A stretch of 64,000 nt of DNA from Clostridia bacterium. GTDB lineage: Bacteria > Bacillota > Clostridia > Christensenellales > Borkfalkiaceae. The notes below the pieces were generated by a model. It did not search any database. It was given only the letters and a program-made list of their open reading frames with translations, and had not been told where the DNA came from. The stretch lies in contig JAFQJB010000007.1 in the NCBI GenBank assembly GCA_017397305.1, positions 62,001 to 126,000 of the forward strand. Direction: 5' to 3'. This document shows, piece after piece, positions 2,935-63,768 of this stretch. Each line of letters starts with the position of its first letter. Within the stretch, counting starts at the first letter, position 1. The position numbers were made by a program, and so were the translations under genes.

Positions 2935-3186
2935 AAAAAAAAGGATATACTCATCTATGGGACGAATATATCCGTGTTGCCACCCAATTTCGCAGTAAAA
3001 CTGCCTTTTTCAAGCACTATCATGCTCTGCCGTTTTAACGCTCGGCTTTCTGCGTCAAAGACTACTCTTATTTCGCCCTTGCCCTCGGTAACCCATTCAA
3101 TAAAGCCCGATAATTTGCTTACACCAACCGCAAACTCTCTATCTATCAAGGCAATACCTACTATTTTACCTCATCGGTTTAATATC
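2935..3186 (-). promoter_or_regulatory. T-box leader specific for tRNA-Trp, upstream of trpB2
   Basis: Read on the minus strand the leader shows the AGAGAG and GGTTGGTG elements of stem I, a candidate specifier loop GAATGGGTT with the Trp codon TGG at 3095-3093, and a T-box sequence GGGTGGCAACACGG (about 2984-2971). The TGGC in the T-box bulge would pair with the GCCA end of a tRNA with discriminator G, as tRNA-Trp has. A terminator stem (2943-2950 with 2965-2972) followed by eight U residues ends the leader. Uncharged tRNA-Trp would stabilise the antiterminator and allow trpB2 transcription. Assignment of the specifier is by eye. Confidence 0.88.
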
Positions 3187-3249: not shown

Positions 3250-4152
3250 TTAATCTTCATATATGCCGTATGTTGAAAGCAAATATTTGCCCATTTCAAA
3301 AAGCAATTTATTCTCTGCTCTAATAACGTCAATCGAAGCATTTTTCCTCGCGTTTAACGTGTCAAAGGCGAATAGTTTATCTTTTAAGGTACAAGTGCAT
3401 TCAAAGGTAAACGGCCCCTTAAACCCTATATCAATCAGCCCTCTAATCGCTTTATCGTTATCAGTTGTGCCTAAAAACGGAATTCTATGCTCATCAGCAA
3501 GCGTGTTGTTATCATTATAATGGATAGCGTATAAGTCTTTATCGAGAATTTTAATCTGCTCATACTGGTCAATCTTCATTGAGTTGCCGTGCCCAATATC
3601 CCAACACGCGTGAAGAAGAGGGTGGTTAAAATATTCAATAAACTCTTTCAGCCTTTCTGCAGTATTAAAATAGTATCTGCCGTTATTGTCGTTTATTCCA
3701 ACGTTTTCAACCAAAAGGTTTACCCCTGTTTTTTCCATAACGGGAAGCAACTTTTCAAAAAATTGCTTGTTTAACTCTATCGTTTGCTCTTTTGACGTGT
3801 TACGTTTTACCCCTGCATGAAAAACAGTCATAGGTATTGAAAGTTCTTTGCAAATTTCAATTGAACGCACGGTTTGGTCAAACTTGTCTTGCCAATTTTC
3901 TGTTGGCGACAAGGTTTCAAGCGTTTCAAACGCAGGTGAATGCGCTTGAACAAAGGTAATTTCAAGGCTGTCAGCATAATCTTTAAGCCTCTTTATATCC
4001 TCCTTCCAATTATCGTGCATAAAAGGCACAACCTCATCCCCATACATGCTAAAATCCACGTATCTAAAGCCTGCGTCGTGCAGTTCTTTTATCTTTTCAA
4101 ATTCAGTTGTGCAATGTTTGGAAAAATCCCCCGTAGTATTACAAAGTTTCAT
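3250..4152 (-). CDS. Sugar phosphate isomerase/epimerase (xylose isomerase-like TIM barrel)
   Basis: A 300-aa protein of the AP-endonuclease-2/xylose isomerase-like TIM-barrel superfamily. Candidate metal-site segments are LLVENVG, CWDIGHGN and FTFECT, which place Glu, Asp/His and Glu residues at the ends of barrel strands, as in the family. I start at the ATG at 4152 because GAGGGAATT precedes it; an in-frame start further upstream (4200) lacks a ribosome binding site. The natural sugar cannot be told from sequence. It is not in an obvious operon, although it is followed by the trpB2 promoter region on the same strand. Confidence 0.8.
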   Translation of the reverse strand: MKLCNTTGDFSKHCTTEFEKIKELHDAGFRYVDFSMYGDEVVPFMHDNWKEDIKRLKDYADSLEITFVQAHSPAFETLETLSPTENWQDKFDQTVRSIEICKELSIPMTVFHAGVKRNTSKEQTIELNKQFFEKLLPVMEKTGVNLLVENVGINDNNGRYYFNTAERLKEFIEYFNHPLLHACWDIGHGNSMKIDQYEQIKILDKDLYAIHYNDNNTLADEHRIPFLGTTDNDKAIRGLIDIGFKGPFTFECTCTLKDKLFAFDTLNARKNASIDVIRAENKLLFEMGKYLLSTYGIYED

Positions 4153-4234
4153 AATTCCCTCGCCTATTTTATAGATATATTTTAACACAAACGTAATCAA
4201 TGTGCAACTTAAATTTAAAATAAATAATAATAAA

Positions 4235-4268
4235 AAGCACGAGCAGGGCGTTAGCCAGTGTCGTGCTT
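4235..4268 (-). terminator. Terminator after the 97-aa unknown gene
   Basis: An 8-bp outer stem (4235-4242 with 4261-4268) with a small inner stem is followed on the minus strand by TTTTTATT. Confidence 0.7.
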
Positions 4269-4297
4269 ATTCGTGGCGGAGCGTGTGAAACGTAAAA

Positions 4298-4591
4298 CTA
4301 AATTTCTTTTTCAAAAAACAATTCGTGTCTTGTAAACATATCTCCCATAACATGAAAAACTAATGAATAACCTTCTTTTTCAAATTCATTAATTAATCTA
4401 GCTAATGTTTTGCCTAAACGACAAGATTCGTGAACATAATGATATTTTTTATCACTATCTTCAAAAATTATATCGTATCTAGATGCCAAATCTCCCATTA
4501 CAACAGATTTTAATTTGTGATTTAACATAAAGTGTTTTTCTAATATTTTTGAAACTTTTTTCTTTGATCTTGCGTGTTCGTAATAAACCAT
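4298..4591 (-). CDS. Small protein of unknown function, AT-rich, with internal repeat
   Basis: A 97-aa protein I do not recognise. An AGAGG ribosome binding site stands six bases before the ATG. Two similar segments, VVMGDLASRYDIIFED near residues 30-46 and HVMGDMFTRHELFFEK near the end, suggest an internal duplication of a beta-hairpin unit. The helical segment ending in EFEKEGYSLV recalls DUF4177-type small proteins, but this is weak. No signal peptide or membrane helix is seen. The gene looks clearly more AT-rich than its neighbours and sits next to tRNA-Ser, which may mean it was acquired by transfer. Confidence 0.65.
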   Translation of the reverse strand: MVYYEHARSKKKVSKILEKHFMLNHKLKSVVMGDLASRYDIIFEDSDKKYHYVHESCRLGKTLARLINEFEKEGYSLVFHVMGDMFTRHELFFEKEI

Positions 4592-15570: not shown

Positions 15571-15948
15571 TCAATTTTGTTTTTTAATATTTTTTAATTC
15601 TGTAACGAGCTGAAAAACTGAAAGAATAATTAAAAACCCACCGAAAAATCTTTTTAGTAGGTCTCCGCTCATTGCCCTAGCAATATAGCAACCTAAAACG
15701 CACGCAAAAACACCGGGCAGAATTATCATTAAAACGTGCTTAAAATCGACCAGTTTATTCTTAAAATGAATAATCAGTGCAACGACCGACATCGGTATAA
15801 ATCCTATCAAATTTATAGCCTGTGCCGTGTGTTGCCCAGTTTTATAAAATATGCTTAAAAGCGGGATAAGTATAGTACCTCCTCCCATACCCATTCCGCC
15901 TAAAATTCCGCTTAAAAATCCCGCAATCGTATACCACAAAAACCTCAT
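15571..15948 (-). CDS. TauE/SafE family permease, half-size (second of pair)
   Basis: A 125-aa membrane protein with about four helices. GGMGMGGGTILIPLL near residue 18 is the repeated signature of the TauE/SafE (TSUP) family, in which full-length proteins of about 250 aa carry it twice. Family members are thought to export sulfite or sulfonates, or to move similar anions. It starts eight bases after the partner gene, so the two halves probably assemble as one transporter. Confidence 0.85.
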   Translation of the reverse strand: MRFLWYTIAGFLSGILGGMGMGGGTILIPLLSIFYKTGQHTAQAINLIGFIPMSVVALIIHFKNKLVDFKHVLMIILPGVFACVLGCYIARAMSGDLLKRFFGGFLIILSVFQLVTELKNIKKQN

Positions 15949-15956
15949 TATTCACC

Positions 15957-16355
15957 TCAAAAAAATAACATTTTTATACCTGCACCCGCCATAACCGCTG
16001 AAAAAATTATAACAACCCACTTTGCAGACAGTTTAGAAAGTAAAAATGCACCCAATACACCGCCCGCAATAACGCCTATCCCTACAGGAGTGCCAATTCT
16101 TAAATTCAAACTGCCGAACACCGCATAAATTATTCCGCTAACAATTGATAACGGCAGTATTATTAAAAGTGCTGTTGCGTGCGCCTTTTTAGGCGGGCAG
16201 TCAAGAAGTTTTATCAGCATAGGAACGACAATCATTCCCCCGCCACCGCCAAAAAGCCCGTTTACAATTCCAGCAATAATACCCGTGATAACTGCATAAA
16301 CGTTTTTTTTGCCATTTTTTGCGTTTGACTTTGCTTCACTTTGATTATAATCCAT
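15957..16355 (-). CDS. TauE/SafE family permease, half-size (first of pair)
   Basis: A 132-aa membrane protein with a basic, polar N terminus and about four helices. The signature NGLFGGGGGMIVVPML near residue 35 aligns with that of the following gene, as expected for the two halves of a TSUP protein. No clear Shine-Dalgarno sequence stands before the ATG at 16355. The substrate is unknown. Confidence 0.85.
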   Translation of the reverse strand: MDYNQSEAKSNAKNGKKNVYAVITGIIAGIVNGLFGGGGGMIVVPMLIKLLDCPPKKAHATALLIILPLSIVSGIIYAVFGSLNLRIGTPVGIGVIAGGVLGAFLLSKLSAKWVVIIFSAVMAGAGIKMLFF

Positions 16356-16426: not shown

Positions 16427-16455
16427 TTGATTTTTATTTTAAAATAATATATAAT
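16427..16455 (+). promoter_or_regulatory. Promoter of the large lipoprotein gene
   Basis: TTGATT (16427-16432), 17-bp spacer and TATAAT (16450-16455). A TGTTA...TAACA inverted repeat lies in the 5' UTR between about 16465 and 16490. Confidence 0.65.
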
Positions 16456-16524: not shown

Positions 16525-19500
16525 ATGACAAGAAACAACAACGTGAACAAATCTAAATGGAAGACATTATTGACTTTATTGTTGATAAGCTTACTTTGTT
16601 TTGCATTTTTACTTGCTTCTGCATGCGGTAAGGATGACGAAAAGAAGGAAGAAGAATTTAAAATCCCCTCTTTCAACTATTCCGAACCGACTGATGAAAG
16701 CACGGTTAGAAACAGCAACTTTGCATGGGCTGTTGAAGATTATGCTTTTTCAGATATGCCCAAAACCAGTGTTACCGGTTGGTCTAGGTCAAGCGACAAT
16801 CTTATGACCTCAACCTCTGCTAAGTCTGGTGTTATAAACGTATCAGACACTGCTTGGGGCAAGGTTGCTAAAAACCTCTATGACCACAGTTATTTTTACG
16901 ATTACTTCTGGGTTATGTACGATATGGATGACACCAAAATTGCAGACGCAATGAAGGCTGACCCCGATTGGGCGGAAAAACCCGTAAGTACTTCCAATAA
17001 GAAGGCATTCTTTATAGAAAATTATATCAATTCGGATAAACCGTTTGAATTTGAAAATAAAACTGTTGACAAAAACACTTTCGGCAACCCTGGTAAATAC
17101 TCACCCGATGCCGACGATAACGTTTACATGCTCAATAACTACCTTTCTAAGTCAAGCGTTGGTTTAGGCACTGCTCAATCAATTAAGTCCGATTCTGATA
17201 TCGTTTTAGAAAAGGGCGGTTACGGTAAGGTTACCGTTTGGGTAAAAACCCAAAACGTTGGCGGTTCTTATGCCGACACCGATAGTGCTGGTGCAACCAT
17301 TTATCTTACAAACTCATTAAACAAAGAATCTCAAGCAGATTTTGGTATCTTTAACATTATCGCTGAGGATTGGACCCAATTCACCATTTACGTTAAAGCG
17401 GACGATAATTACGAAACTACATTCAGTATCAATCTTGGTCTTGGTTACGACAAGTTTAGCGCGACTGAAGGTACCGCTTATTTTGACGACGTTGTGTTCA
17501 CCCCCCTCACCGCTGAGGAATTTGCAAACGAAAACACCACTAATGCCGTAAGCAAGGTTGTTAAATTTAATAGCGAAGATGCTATTAAGGTGCTAGATAC
17601 CGACCTTGGTAAAACCGTCGATGGAACTACTAGAATTGCTACGGCTTGGCCCGTTGTTTATAGCTGTTCAATCTATGACGACCTAAAGGGCGAATCATAT
17701 TTGGTTGATAGCGGTTTGAATTTCACAAGTCAATATACCACCTCTAATAAAACCGATAAAGACGGCAATGCTATCTCTGGTGGTAGATTTGATACCGACC
17801 ATAAAACTATAGCAGCTACAACCTCGCTTGATTCAAGTGTATTCCCATACGAAGCTAGTGCAACTCAAGTTAAACTTACTAATGCAAGTTACACGATTGA
17901 CATCGGTAGCAAAACTCAAACTTTGAAGGTTAAACCTGGCGAATATGCTTACGTAGAATTCTACGTTAAAAACCAACTTTCTAAACTTAGCGACACTACG
18001 ATTACTATCGACCTTTACGATATTAAAGGCGACGTTATCAAGAAAAGACCTGCTCTTGCAACCATCACTGAAACAAGTGACGAATGGGCAAAAGTTAGCA
18101 TTATTGTCAACAATAACTTTACAATTGGCGAAAGAGAATTCTATCTTTCAGTAGTAATCGGACCGACTGACGTTGCAAGTGCAACCTACGTTGCTGATTA
18201 CGCAAACGGCGAAGTGTCTCTCACCTACCCCAACGTTGCGTTTGGTATTATTGAACAATACGACGAAAACGGCAATGAAACTGCAAACTATCAATACTAT
18301 TCGTTGTTCTCTTCATCAGCAAGTGCGACCACCTCTCTCTATGCTGGTAGCCCGAGCGATTCTCAAGAAAGCACCGAATCTCAAACAGTATACGATTTGA
18401 CGGTTGCTCCTAGCGATTTGGGTTCAATCGAATCTAGACCCGCTACCCCCAAGGGATACCAAGGCATTGTTGCCGACCACTTCTACGTTAAAGAAGACAG
18501 CAAAAATAGAGACGTTAATACAAGCAAAACCGCTGGTCTTATCAACACCAAATATCTAAGTAACTACACCATGCTTCCCAATTTGGCTACGGCTCTTGGA
18601 TTTAACACTGGTGACGAAGATATTCAACCCTTAGTTATTTATAACCCCACCCCCGCTCACTACGGATACGTTAGTCAATCTTACACTATTAATAAAAACG
18701 CAAAGGCAAAGGTTGAGGTTACTTTAAGAGTTGTTGACGATGCTAAAGCTTATATTTATTTAGTTAACACTGGTAACGCCGATAAAAAAGTTATGACCTT
18801 TGGCGATTTTACCGCTAATGTAAACAACAAAGGTGAAGATATTTCCAACGGCAAACAATATAACGGCGAAGACCTTAAACTTTTCTTCGAAGTTGACAAG
18901 AACACCATGAACGGTGAAGATTGGATTACCGTTGAATTCTTCGTTGCAAACGGCGTAAATGCTAAGGACTTCCGTGTAGAAGTTTGGAATGGTGGTAGAG
19001 ATAATGGCGAACAAACCGCTTCTACCGGTTACGTGTTCGTATCCTCTATAAAAGTATCAGCTTCTGCAGATTTTAAAACACCTACTTGGAAGGAAGCTTT
19101 CACTGTTGAAGGCAATCCCCTTTATGACGTTGGTATGAGCGAATTTGCTGAAGGCAACTTGATTCTTTACAAACAAGAATTGACCGACATCGAAAAGCAA
19201 TATAACGACGAATACGATGACGACGTTACCTACTCCCCCAGTTATATTTGGGCAAAGAATGACACGTTCGTTTATGCGGTTTACAACACCATCGAGCCTG
19301 ACGTTGAAAATCCTTACGATAAAATTGTTGAAGAAGAAGAGGAAGATACAAAGGGATGCAAAAAATCTGAAGAAGATAATCCCGCATCATTCTGGTTATC
19401 CTTCTCCTCCATCCTTCTCGGTGCAACCTTATTCCTTGCACTTCTAGCTCTTGTGGTTAAGAACATTAGACGTAGACGCAAAGCAAATAGAAGCGATGCT

Positions 19501-19788
19501 AAATCTCACTACAAGATTACCAGCAGAACTAAAGGTAAAGCAAAAGCTGAAAAGAAATCTTGGTTTGCACGTCTAAAAGAAAAATATGCCGACGAAGAGG
19601 AAGAAGAAGTTGAACAAGCTGAATTAGTTGAAGAACAACCCGAAGAAGAGGAAATCGAACAACAAGAAGAACAATCAGCTGAAGAACAAACCCTTGACGA
19701 ATACGTTTACGGCGACGTTCAAGATTTCGGGGAGTCCGAAGAGAACGAAAAACCGCAAGTAGATTCTCAAGAAAATAACGAAAAGTAA
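16525..19788 (+). CDS. Large predicted surface lipoprotein with C-terminal membrane anchor and acidic tail
   Basis: A 1087-aa protein I cannot assign to a named family. The N terminus is a lipoprotein signal: basic residues, a hydrophobic stretch and lipobox ASAC with Cys34. An acidic linker follows, then about 900 residues rich in Asn, Thr, Asp and Tyr, with at least three beta-rich units near residues 200-330, 420-580 and 720-850. The first ends with GTAYFDDVVF, a pattern common at the end of CBM4/9-type jelly rolls. A membrane helix spans about 955-978, followed by a basic stop-transfer (RRRRK) and a roughly 105-residue tail that becomes Glu-rich. A lipid anchor at one end and a helix at the other would loop the body outside the cell and leave the tail inside. 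AAAGGTG precedes the ATG. Confidence 0.8.
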   Translation: MTRNNNVNKSKWKTLLTLLLISLLCFAFLLASACGKDDEKKEEEFKIPSFNYSEPTDESTVRNSNFAWAVEDYAFSDMPKTSVTGWSRSSDNLMTSTSAKSGVINVSDTAWGKVAKNLYDHSYFYDYFWVMYDMDDTKIADAMKADPDWAEKPVSTSNKKAFFIENYINSDKPFEFENKTVDKNTFGNPGKYSPDADDNVYMLNNYLSKSSVGLGTAQSIKSDSDIVLEKGGYGKVTVWVKTQNVGGSYADTDSAGATIYLTNSLNKESQADFGIFNIIAEDWTQFTIYVKADDNYETTFSINLGLGYDKFSATEGTAYFDDVVFTPLTAEEFANENTTNAVSKVVKFNSEDAIKVLDTDLGKTVDGTTRIATAWPVVYSCSIYDDLKGESYLVDSGLNFTSQYTTSNKTDKDGNAISGGRFDTDHKTIAATTSLDSSVFPYEASATQVKLTNASYTIDIGSKTQTLKVKPGEYAYVEFYVKNQLSKLSDTTITIDLYDIKGDVIKKRPALATITETSDEWAKVSIIVNNNFTIGEREFYLSVVIGPTDVASATYVADYANGEVSLTYPNVAFGIIEQYDENGNETANYQYYSLFSSSASATTSLYAGSPSDSQESTESQTVYDLTVAPSDLGSIESRPATPKGYQGIVADHFYVKEDSKNRDVNTSKTAGLINTKYLSNYTMLPNLATALGFNTGDEDIQPLVIYNPTPAHYGYVSQSYTINKNAKAKVEVTLRVVDDAKAYIYLVNTGNADKKVMTFGDFTANVNNKGEDISNGKQYNGEDLKLFFEVDKNTMNGEDWITVEFFVANGVNAKDFRVEVWNGGRDNGEQTASTGYVFVSSIKVSASADFKTPTWKEAFTVEGNPLYDVGMSEFAEGNLILYKQELTDIEKQYNDEYDDDVTYSPSYIWAKNDTFVYAVYNTIEPDVENPYDKIVEEEEEDTKGCKKSEEDNPASFWLSFSSILLGATLFLALLALVVKNIRRRRKANRSDAKSHYKITSRTKGKAKAEKKSWFARLKEKYADEEEEEVEQAELVEEQPEEEEIEQQEEQSAEEQTLDEYVYGDVQDFGESEENEKPQVDSQENNEK

Positions 19789-19804
19789 TTTTTGTTAAAC
19801 CTAA

Positions 19805-19833
19805 ACGCACCGCAAATTGCGGTGCGTTTTTTC
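19805..19833 (+). terminator. Terminator after the lipoprotein gene
   Basis: An 11-bp stem around CGCACCGC/GCGGTGCG is followed by TTTTTTC. Confidence 0.85.
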
Positions 19834-19874: not shown

Positions 19875-20936
19875 ATGGCTACTATAATTTTAACGGGTGG
19901 CGGAACGGCTGGACATTGTATACCAAACGTTGCGCTTCTTCCCTACTTAAAAAAAAGTTTTGACAAAATTTATTACGTAGGCAGTGAAAACGGTATTGAA
20001 AGACGGATAATCGAAAAGGAAAACATTCCGTACTATCACGTGCCTTGTGTAAAGGTGAGCAGAACCAACGCGCTTGAAAACCTTAAACTACCCTTTTTGT
20101 TAATGAAAGGTATAAAATGTGCCGATAAACTGCTTGACGAATTAGCACCTGACGTGGTGTTTTCAAAAGGTGGATACGTGTCCGTTCCCATCGTGATAAG
20201 CGCAAGCAAGAAAAAAATCCCCGTAATATCGCACGAAAGCGACCTAACCCCTGGACTTGCAAACAAGTTTACTTCAAAACGTTGCGAGGTGGTTTTAACA
20301 GCCTTTCCCGAAACTGCAAAAAAGGTTAAAAAAGGGAAATTTGTCGGTGCACCTATTAGAAGTTCCATTTATTCAACGGGCAAGGTCGATGCAAAAAAAT
20401 TCGGGTTTACCGACTCTAAACCTATAATTTTAGTCACTGGCGGAAGTCAAGGCGCAAAAGCAATAAATCAAGTCGTTCGCAACTGCTTAAACAATTTGCT
20501 TAATAAGTTTAACGTAATTCATATTTGCGGTAAGGGGAATTTAGATAATACCTTTAACTTAAAAGGATATTATCAAACCGAATATATGGATAACATAGAA
20601 AAGGCTTTTGCCGTTTGTTCAGTGTGCGTTACAAGGGCGGGTGCAAATACACTTTTTGAGTTGCTTTCCTTAAAAATTCCTTGTGTTGTTATCCCCCTCC
20701 CCAAAGGCGCGTCGCGTGGCGACCAAATAGAAAACGCAAACTACTTTGAAAAACTTGGGCTACTCAACGTACTTTATCAAGAAAACCTTACCCCTGATGC
20801 ACTTAACCTTGCAATTTCCTCGACCTATTCAAATAGATTTAATATCAAGAAAAGCCTTGAAAAACGCCCCGTAACCGATGCAAGCGAAGAGATTGTGAAT
20901 ATAATAGAAAGTTACGTTAAACCGCTGAAAAACTAA
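19875..20936 (+). CDS. murG: MurG-like UDP-GlcNAc:lipid I N-acetylglucosaminyltransferase
   Basis: A 353-aa GT28-family glycosyltransferase. The N-terminal GGGTAGHCIPN loop, SKGGYVSVP and the C-terminal VTGGSQGAKAIN and TRAGANTLFELL stretches are MurG landmarks. MurG adds GlcNAc to lipid I to form lipid II on the inner membrane face. The usual HEQN motif is HESD here, so this may be a divergent or second MurG. It is away from other mur genes and follows the lipoprotein gene after a terminator. Its ribosome binding site is weak. Confidence 0.88.
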   Translation: MATIILTGGGTAGHCIPNVALLPYLKKSFDKIYYVGSENGIERRIIEKENIPYYHVPCVKVSRTNALENLKLPFLLMKGIKCADKLLDELAPDVVFSKGGYVSVPIVISASKKKIPVISHESDLTPGLANKFTSKRCEVVLTAFPETAKKVKKGKFVGAPIRSSIYSTGKVDAKKFGFTDSKPIILVTGGSQGAKAINQVVRNCLNNLLNKFNVIHICGKGNLDNTFNLKGYYQTEYMDNIEKAFAVCSVCVTRAGANTLFELLSLKIPCVVIPLPKGASRGDQIENANYFEKLGLLNVLYQENLTPDALNLAISSTYSNRFNIKKSLEKRPVTDASEEIVNIIESYVKPLKN

Positions 20937-62064: not shown

Positions 62065-63768
62065 TTATTTCTTTTTGGGAGAATAAGAGGTGTGCAACAA
62101 TTCGTGTGCCTTATGACCGCCGATTTCACCGATATAGTTATCGTAAAGTGATTTAACGGTCATGTTTTCATGACTCTTTCTCTTTCTCATAGAAGCATCG
62201 TCATCATATAAGCCTTTTGCACGGAGACCCTTATAGTCCTCAGCCGAACGAGTGAACGCATCAACGAACGGTTGACCGCCACCGTTAATGCAACCGCCGG
62301 GGCAACTCATGATTTCAATAAATTGATAATCAGCCTCGCCTGCTTTAACTTTGTCGCAAAGTGATGCGGCATTTTTAAGACCACTAACAACCGCAACTTT
62401 AACTGCTACGTCGCCAGCTTTATAGGTTGCCTCCTTAACGCCTTGCATACCACGAACTTCCTTGAATTCAACGTTCTCAAGTTTTTTGCCCGATATGGTT
62501 TCAACAGCCGTACGGAGAGCCGCTTCCATAACACCGCCAGATGCACCGAAGATGACGCCAGCACCAGTGTATTCTACACCGGGGTTATCAGCAAGACCAT
62601 CTTCTAAATGCTTAAAGCTGATACCAGATTCGTTAATCATACGAATAACTTCTTGGGTTGAAAGAACAAAGTCAACGTTTCCGTCGAATTTTTCAAGTTT
62701 TGCTTCGTCCTTTTTAGCTGAACACGGCATGATTGCAACGTGAACGTGCTTTTTCTCACCCTTATAGGAATCTTTAACCAAAGATGCAAGCATTTGCATA
62801 GGTGAACGACAAGAAGAAATGTTCGGCAATAATTCGGGATACTTTTCTTCAGCGAAGGTTATCCATGCGGGACAACAAGAAGTGAACATGGGAAGTTTTA
62901 CACCTTCTTTTACCCTTTCGATAAGTTCGTGCGATTCTTCCATAATGCAAAGGTCAGCACCAATGTTTGTATCGTAAATTTTATCAAATCCCATTTCACG
63001 AAGAGCGGTTACGAGTTTACCCATAACGTTTTCGCCTTCGTTAAGCCCCAATTCTTTGCTCAAACCAACTCTTACTGCGGGAGCAATTTGAACGGAAACT
63101 TCAACGTCGGGATTGCCGATAGCCTTCCAAACTGCGTCGGCATCGTCACGAATGGTGATAGCACCAGTCGGGCAAACTGCAGCACATTGACCACAGCCAA
63201 CGCAAGGTGAAGTGGTTATATCTTTATCGAATGCGGTTGCAATCTTCATTTTTGAGCCACGGAAAGCATAGTCGATTGCACCAACACCTTGAACTTCGTT
63301 ACACATTCTTACGCATTTACCGCAAAGAATACATTTTGAAGGTGTTCTAACGATGCAGTTTGAAGATTTATCTTGCTTCATATCCGCATAGTTGTTGGGG
63401 AATCTTACGCCTTCGATGTTAAATCTATGTGCGAACTCTTGCAATCTGCACTTACCGCTCATTTGACAGGTTGTACAATCTCTGCAGTGGTTAGCAAGCA
63501 AAAGTTCCAATATCATTTTTCTATATTTACGGAGTTTTGCTGTGTTGGTTTTAACAATCATACCCGCTCTAGGAATGGTTGAGCAAGCCGCGTCAAACCT
63601 ACCGCGTTCGTCTTCGAACATACACATTCTGCATGCGCCGTAAATAGAAAGTTCAGGGTCATAACAGAAAGCGGGAATTTCAATACCAACTTTTCTTGCA
63701 ACTTCGAGGACGTTCTTTTCTCCGTCGATTTCGGCTTTAATGCCGTCAATAATCATATATTCACTCAT
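62065..63768 (-). CDS. [FeFe] hydrogenase, NADH-dependent multimeric type (HydA/HndD)
   Basis: A 567-aa hydrogenase. An N-terminal [2Fe-2S] ferredoxin domain (CRMCMFE) is followed by a His-Cys3 cluster site (HCRDCTTCQMSGKCRLQEF) and two [4Fe-4S] sites (CILCGKCVRMC, CVGCGQCAAVCP). The H-cluster motifs are TSCCPAWITF, MPCSAKKDE and MSCPGGCINGGGQP. A C-terminal small-subunit segment (MRKRKSHENMTVKSLYDNYIG) ends the protein. It evolves or bifurcates H2 with NAD(P)H and ferredoxin in the cytosol. AAGGAGG and the stop of its partner gene overlap its upstream region. Confidence 0.96.
   Translation of the reverse strand: MSEYMIIDGIKAEIDGEKNVLEVARKVGIEIPAFCYDPELSIYGACRMCMFEDERGRFDAACSTIPRAGMIVKTNTAKLRKYRKMILELLLANHCRDCTTCQMSGKCRLQEFAHRFNIEGVRFPNNYADMKQDKSSNCIVRTPSKCILCGKCVRMCNEVQGVGAIDYAFRGSKMKIATAFDKDITTSPCVGCGQCAAVCPTGAITIRDDADAVWKAIGNPDVEVSVQIAPAVRVGLSKELGLNEGENVMGKLVTALREMGFDKIYDTNIGADLCIMEESHELIERVKEGVKLPMFTSCCPAWITFAEEKYPELLPNISSCRSPMQMLASLVKDSYKGEKKHVHVAIMPCSAKKDEAKLEKFDGNVDFVLSTQEVIRMINESGISFKHLEDGLADNPGVEYTGAGVIFGASGGVMEAALRTAVETISGKKLENVEFKEVRGMQGVKEATYKAGDVAVKVAVVSGLKNAASLCDKVKAGEADYQFIEIMSCPGGCINGGGQPFVDAFTRSAEDYKGLRAKGLYDDDASMRKRKSHENMTVKSLYDNYIGEIGGHKAHELLHTSYSPKKK

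Follow-up and report, generated by a model that had tools for sequence, protein, structure and literature searches.

An unnamed, order-wide clostridial family of jelly-roll surface proteins with a predicted lipid anchor, membrane helix and cytosolic tail

The surface-protein gene, its transcription unit and its neighbours

The gene described here lies at positions 16525-19788 (plus strand) of the 64,000-nucleotide stretch of clostridial DNA that was analysed (the window), and its open reading frame translates to a protein of 1087 residues, exactly as a preliminary description had reported. It is present as a single copy in its own genome (1.39 Mb, 27 contigs searched), and its predicted layout comprises a lipoprotein signal peptide, about 920 extracellular residues, one transmembrane (TM) helix and a tail of 108 residues. 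Upstream, a sigma-A-type promoter (TTGATT-17-TATAAT; 16427-16455, plus strand) was found by scanning and is conserved in 30 aligned upstream regions from the genus and its sister clade. Downstream, in the interval before murG, there is an intrinsic terminator (19803-19829, plus strand), with a 12-bp stem followed by a T-run, 14 bp past the stop codon; 27 of 32 other loci also have a terminator within 160 bp, with differing stem sequences, against a rate of 0.4% in shuffled sequence. The conserved promoter and terminator thus mark the surface-protein gene as a transcription unit of its own. Rfam recognised no regulatory RNA upstream of it; elsewhere in the window, a T-box leader (2955-3183, minus strand; RF00230, 116 bits) lies upstream of the gene at 1369-2745.

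The codon adaptation index (CAI) of the surface-protein gene, calculated against the ribosomal-protein genes of its own genome, is 0.695, which ranks first among the 55 genes of the window (window median 0.55; ribosomal proteins 0.73). In 18 distant genomes, where it was compared with the 6-15 genes of each locus, the relative took first place in 12, where 1.6 would be expected, and one of the top two places in 16; few ribosomal genes served as reference in some of these genomes and single values are rough. Such ribosomal-protein-like codon bias, which is a proxy for expression, predicts that the surface protein is highly expressed. The second-highest codon adaptation in the window, just under that of the surface-protein gene, belongs to a [FeFe] hydrogenase (62065-63768, minus strand).

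Gene order in the genus and its sister clade is nearly fixed: MreB, Ppx, and the N- and C-terminal halves of a TauE/SafE transporter, all on the minus strand, are followed by the surface-protein gene, murG and a WYL regulator. The murG gene (19875-20936, plus strand; TIGR01133, NF009102) is the only one in the genome, and its proximity had been offered in the preliminary description as a clue to function. That clue does not extend beyond the genus and sister clade: murG lies 3′ of the surface-protein gene in 34 of 35 loci there, versus 0 of 41 distant loci. Given this, and the terminator that intervenes both here and in the 27 relatives, we reject a murG operon. A scan of viral contigs with MurG found no relative.

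The lasting neighbour, where most others change, is the divergently transcribed TauE/SafE pair (15571-16355, minus strand). This transporter is encoded by two separate half-size genes, of which the first specifies the C-terminal half (15957-16355; PF01925 positions 120-237, E 7e-25) and the second the N-terminal half (15571-15948; PF01925 positions 2-112, E 1e-21), and the split pair occurs order-wide. It adjoins the surface-protein gene in 37/37 genus and sister-clade loci and in 34 of 41 distant loci, counting only those fetched through the surface protein and none fetched through TauE. One family (f24) has the surface protein with no pair beside it, and its genomes gave at best weak TauE matches; in four others (f9, f12, f26 and f27) the pair is present and the surface protein was not detected. 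The genes downstream of the surface protein differ by family. A SpoVB-like flippase (TIGR02900, E 2e-52, below its cut-off) is often found there in f3, f6, f8 and f16, sometimes with a small LysM protein, a neighbourhood that hints at envelope work. Loci L095 (6735-9641), L148, L149, L152, L158 and L161 each combine a relative with this flippase, often together with the small LysM protein and two conserved genes. No CAZyme, sugar-transporter or polysaccharide-utilisation neighbours were recognised in the loci examined.

Predicted architecture of the protein

The predicted architecture is well supported by the alignments and the models. At the N-terminus, the signal peptide and lipobox ASAC (16525-16626, plus strand) end at Cys34, the residue that the preliminary description had named as the lipobox Cys; it is invariant in both our 26-row and 40-row alignments of relatives and is kept in 28/28 complete N-termini from the genus. 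With signal peptide, lipobox and invariant Cys all present, the protein has the hallmarks of a bacterial lipoprotein and its lipidation is predicted. A lipobox-type Cys was identified in 44 of 52 distant relatives, a strict pattern accounting for 39 and inspection for the other five; the signal peptides of families f20, f28 and f32 have no lipobox Cys, and the N-terminal anchor of f19 looks uncleaved.

The extracellular body is rich in Thr, Asp, Ser and Asn, acidic and almost devoid of Cys. AlphaFold2 models built with 40 relatives (mean pLDDT 77 over the full length, and 89 in a separate model of residues 400-936) contain three jelly-roll units, encoded on the plus strand: unit 1 (residues 57-332; 16693-17520), with a helical insertion at about 106-170; unit 2 (residues ~425-580; 17797-18264), modelled with pLDDT 89; and unit 3 (residues ~640-852; 18442-19080), with a conserved WNGxRD. 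Units 2 and 3 both align to unit 1 by profile-profile comparison with hhalign, and the units are mutually homologous (E 3.3e-6 for 3 with 1, 1.7e-5 for 2 with 1, and a further value of 4.2e-5). In structure comparison with VIA-align, unit 1 (model residues 57-328) matches the carbohydrate-binding module CBM4-2 (2y64) with Z 13.3 and rmsd 2.7 over 155 aligned residues, and Stig cyclases, which have the same fold, match equally high. Unit 2 matches CBM4-2 (Z 9.2, rmsd 2.9, 133 aligned) and unit 3 a hyaluronan-binding module (4d0q; Z 9.6, rmsd 3.3, 144 aligned), and both reach Z 9-10 to CBM4, CBM22, the hyaluronan-binding module and MAM domains. Together, models, profile-profile matches and structure matches argue that the three jelly-roll units of the preliminary description are right, and that they are of the carbohydrate-binding-module type. 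Unit 1 also shows the N..F...W start and G-YFDDV end that we take to be typical of CBM4, CBM9 and CBM22.

All three units have the jelly-roll beta-sandwich fold of CBM_4_9 (PF02018); the 1087-residue protein has no match at the Pfam cut-off for it, and a weak match was seen in 3 of 26 relatives (best E 2e-4). The units thus belong to the CBM4/9/22 group by fold and are not members by the Pfam cut-off. The glycan-binding idea of the preliminary description finds support in this modelled fold; a jelly roll can also bind proteins, or nothing, and a CBM-type fold alone is no proof of glycan binding. Plant seed vicilins, insecticidal Cry proteins, reelin and a phage baseplate fibre also appeared in structure comparison, and were rejected as relatives because their TM-scores were low and shared jelly-roll repeats explain the matches.

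The body diverges fast, with a median identity of 37% versus 57-86% for all flanking genes compared (MurG 57%, TauE 59%, Ppx 81%), which is as expected of a protein predicted to be exposed. Many body residues are invariant in both alignments, besides Cys34, the TM helix and S1000-R1001.

The C-terminal TM helix (residues 957-979; 19393-19461, plus strand) falls where the preliminary description had put a membrane helix. Hydropathy peaks at residues 960-978 with a value of 2.5, compared with a maximum of 1.2 within the body; AlphaFold2 gives one helix here, at 953-988; and F956, W957, S961, A972 and K979 are invariant in the 40-row alignment. It leads into a basic juxtamembrane stretch containing SHYKITSR (residues 980-1001; 19462-19527), in which S1000 and R1001 are invariant and Y996 nearly so, then into an acidic, Glu-rich linker of pLDDT under 50, and so predicted to be disordered (residues ~1022-1059; 19588-19701), and finally to the motif YVYGDVQDFG (residues 1060-1069; 19702-19731), whose core positions, as YVYG[DE]VQDFG, are at least 90% conserved in the genus. 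The sister clade has YTYGEVLEDFSDD at this place.

The first 25 residues of the tail sum to a net charge of +9 and the last 65 to -28. Among distant relatives, a C-terminal TM helix (hydropathy 2.5-3.4) is present in 51 of the 51 that are readable at that end, each with a net charge of at least +3 within the 20 residues after it (median +7); a TM helix followed by a basic stretch supports, by the positive-inside rule, a cytosolic tail. Distant relatives have tails with net charges anywhere between +13 and -29, which shows that acidity is not what has been conserved, and within the family the linker varies in length, charge and sequence. The strongly acidic tail of about 105 residues in the preliminary description is therefore right for this protein and does not hold as a feature of the family. 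What recurs is an aromatic residue near acidic ones at the tail end (for example YDKFKE, DEFKD and NDPYNE), in 26 of 51 distant relatives from ten families, against 3.2 expected from shuffles and a maximum of 10 in 2000 shuffles; this excess is no strict probability, because the relatives share ancestry and the pattern was defined once the tails had been inspected. A tail profile run on 13 genomes found the 1087-residue protein only, plus one marginal hit (E 0.004), which led us to reject the tail as a module common to other proteins, and neither Pfam nor NCBIfam recognised a known signalling domain in it. The short, nearly invariant motifs look like docking sites, in keeping with the earlier idea that the tail binds something inside.

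Within the genus both anchors are kept, the TM helix and tail being absent from only one C-terminally complete relative (L021), whose frame is broken by stop codons. Further out, the two ends part company. The preliminary description had regarded homologues lacking either the lipobox or the C-terminal helix as evidence against its layout; the lipobox is missing in f20, f28, f32 and f19, and the helix is never lost. As the C-terminal helix is invariable and the N-terminal end more variable, we conclude that the predicted lipid anchor is a common but replaceable feature and that the TM helix and tail form the core of the protein. Loss of the lipid anchor in some families also means that a loop held at two points is not essential everywhere.

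Distribution of the family

Relatives were found in 33 of 37 same-genus genomes, the four without a match being 58-71% complete, and in 23/23 of those at least 80% complete. Identity among the 26 and 40 aligned relatives is 31-62%. When 396 genomes sampled from the order were searched with a profile built from the genus, 181 gave relatives, of 886 to 1771 residues, covering 66 of 142 genera; the family as a whole spans at least 15 families of the order. Members in f14 were missed by this genome scan and found beside their TauE pair. The families concerned differ in genome size and include genomes of about 1 Mb. Deposited relatives, found by a named search, come from uncultured Clostridia, mostly from the gut of ruminants; among them is a record entered as Christensenella sp. 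UBA1259 (placed by NCBI in the order Christensenellales), and these relatives point to Christensenellales as the order concerned.

No full-length relative was found outside the order: 291 genomes of the class gave only single jelly-roll units of other proteins. Two of these, from other Clostridia (L198 and L199), resemble the 1087-residue protein in having a signal peptide, a CBM_4_9-type unit related to unit 1 (E 4e-15 and 1e-14), a C-terminal TM helix and a short tail, which is acidic in L198; they differ in being only 255-287 residues long, with one unit and no lipobox. L199, in another order, is the only relative to pass the Pfam CBM_4_9 cut-off (E 3e-8), and the 287-residue L198 protein (3457-4317) gives the impression of the same plan reduced to one unit. 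In other clostridial orders, an N-terminal jelly roll related to unit 1 is also found on GT-C-type membrane glycosyltransferases, PMT-like and ALG6/ALG8-like (L197:2954-5038, L200:3864-5960 and L200:5950-8430). A same-genus genome encodes a different lipoprotein of 922 residues (L099:3814-6579), with no C-terminal helix, whose first ~50 residues resemble the N-terminus of our protein (53% over ~47 residues).

Searches of Pfam and NCBIfam recognised no family in the 1087-residue protein, bearing out the earlier statement that no named family has this layout, and on the same grounds a known enzyme family was rejected. Matches to FAM176, PFF1_TM and SAG1386_EF1546 were below cut-offs and reflect only the composition of a TM helix plus tail. 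A sequence search of the PDB gave chance-level matches only (old yellow enzyme, E 0.04 and worse), 50,697 phage records gave no match, which led us to reject a phage origin, and literature searches returned nothing on the protein or on its layout.

Possible roles and comparison with known systems

We propose, giving it a little under an even chance, that this is an abundant, membrane-tethered protein which binds wall glycan and has a cytosolic docking tail. It would be exported by Sec and then lipidated at Cys34, and its last TM helix would be inserted with the tail inside, so that the ~920 residues between, with three CBM4/CBM22-type jelly rolls in tandem, would form a loop held near the membrane. 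For the jelly rolls we expect a glycan ligand, the cell's own wall polymer being the likeliest, since a double-tied loop has a reach of a few nanometres at most and no neighbour of the gene was recognised as serving sugar uptake; the conserved tail motifs would dock a cytosolic or membrane partner. Both ligand and partner are what we infer. With glycan held outside and the tail docked inside, wall glycan could be tied to the membrane and to inner machinery. It is not obvious how the conserved, divergent TauE/SafE pair would fit into this wall-glycan model. A bolder extension, which we consider rather less probable, is that the family is an order-wide class of abundant adaptors with both ends in the membrane, in which the jelly-roll loop holds a wall or surface glycan and the tail motifs recruit a dedicated partner, one protein thereby linking the state of the wall physically to cytosolic machinery.

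Alternatively, the protein might form the major outer coat of the cell, like an S-layer protein in which a TM helix takes the place of wall-binding modules as the anchor. In favour of this are high predicted expression, a strong promoter and terminator of its own, fast divergence, the acidic and almost Cys-free body rich in Thr, Asp, Ser and Asn, and a genome that has no SLH modules. The short reach imposed by anchoring at both ends, however, fits poorly with a coat outside a peptidoglycan wall; conserved cytosolic tail motifs would be needless for one, and nothing points to a lattice, which leaves this explanation unlikely, if foremost among the rivals. Somewhat less likely again is that the protein serves to catch polysaccharides of the diet or the host, which would then be broken down and taken up, in the manner of Bacteroides surface glycan-binding lipoproteins. 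The CBM-type units, the structural similarity to a Bacteroides surface glycan-binding protein (7kwb; Foldseek E 1e-8 to 1e-7) and the ruminant-gut origin of relatives speak for this, but the loci offer no recognised CAZyme or sugar-transporter neighbours, the protein is kept across families of differing genome size, down to the genomes of about 1 Mb, and both its ends are tied to the membrane.

Binding of glycan outside might alternatively alter or release the cytosolic tail, which would then act on a regulator or transporter. The single-pass layout and conserved tail motifs do resemble those of MAM-type single-pass receptors, and MAM jelly rolls are among the structural matches; receptors, however, are seldom as abundant as is predicted here, the surface protein has no sensor or regulator conserved in linkage with it, and the tail has no known signalling domain, making such a role improbable. 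To about the same degree we doubt that the protein works with the divergent, split TauE/SafE transporter, as one of its subunits or as an accessory. This alone among the rivals accounts for the lasting link to the adjacent TauE/SafE pair, kept at the loci counted above while other neighbours mostly change. Against it, the two are separately transcribed, f24 keeps the protein with no adjacent pair, and several families carry the pair with no surface protein detected. Roughly, then, we rank the outer coat above polysaccharide capture, followed by the receptor and the transporter accessory, all behind the wall-glycan-binding protein with its docking tail.

The envelopes of uncultured gut clostridia with small genomes are poorly described, and a single-copy, probably highly expressed protein that occurs in many families and is absent from Pfam and NCBIfam is likely to be a core part of them. 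What sits inside becomes a concrete question through the invariant TM helix and tail motifs, and the combination of a fast-changing outer part with steady presence could serve as a marker for the group.

Several known systems share parts of this plan. BcsB-type polysaccharide-synthase subunits likewise have extracytoplasmic jelly rolls and a C-terminal TM helix, with a weak Foldseek match (E ~2e-6), but their TM-scores are very low and the surroundings of the surface-protein gene showed no synthase gene. S-layer proteins resemble it in abundance, as predicted here from codon usage, in having a strong transcription unit of their own and in fast divergence; they differ in that no SLH modules (PF00395) occur in the 1087-residue protein or anywhere in its genome, in its TM and lipid anchors, and in a lattice being only hypothetical. 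The CBM4/CBM9/CBM22 modules (PF02018) have in common with it the jelly-roll fold of all three units; it differs in having no catalytic domain and in placing three units in a membrane-fixed loop.

The preliminary description had held that lipoproteins normally have no second anchor, which stands as a norm with known exceptions: YidC, CtaC and QoxA are lipoproteins with additional membrane segments (PMC13068155). The two-anchor layout is therefore not unprecedented. Pfam and NCBIfam give the 1087-residue protein no match to these three. YidC/SpoIIIJ, CtaC and QoxA share with it an N-terminal lipid anchor combined with one or more transmembrane segments (PMC13068155), but they are oxidase subunits or insertases with two or five membrane spans, whereas our protein is single-pass with ~920 extracellular residues. 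Because two-anchor layouts are known, the units are of the CBM4/9/22 group by fold yet outside CBM_4_9 by the Pfam cut-off, and SLH modules are absent, we regard the 1087-residue protein as representing an unnamed, order-wide family, and a new combination of known parts.
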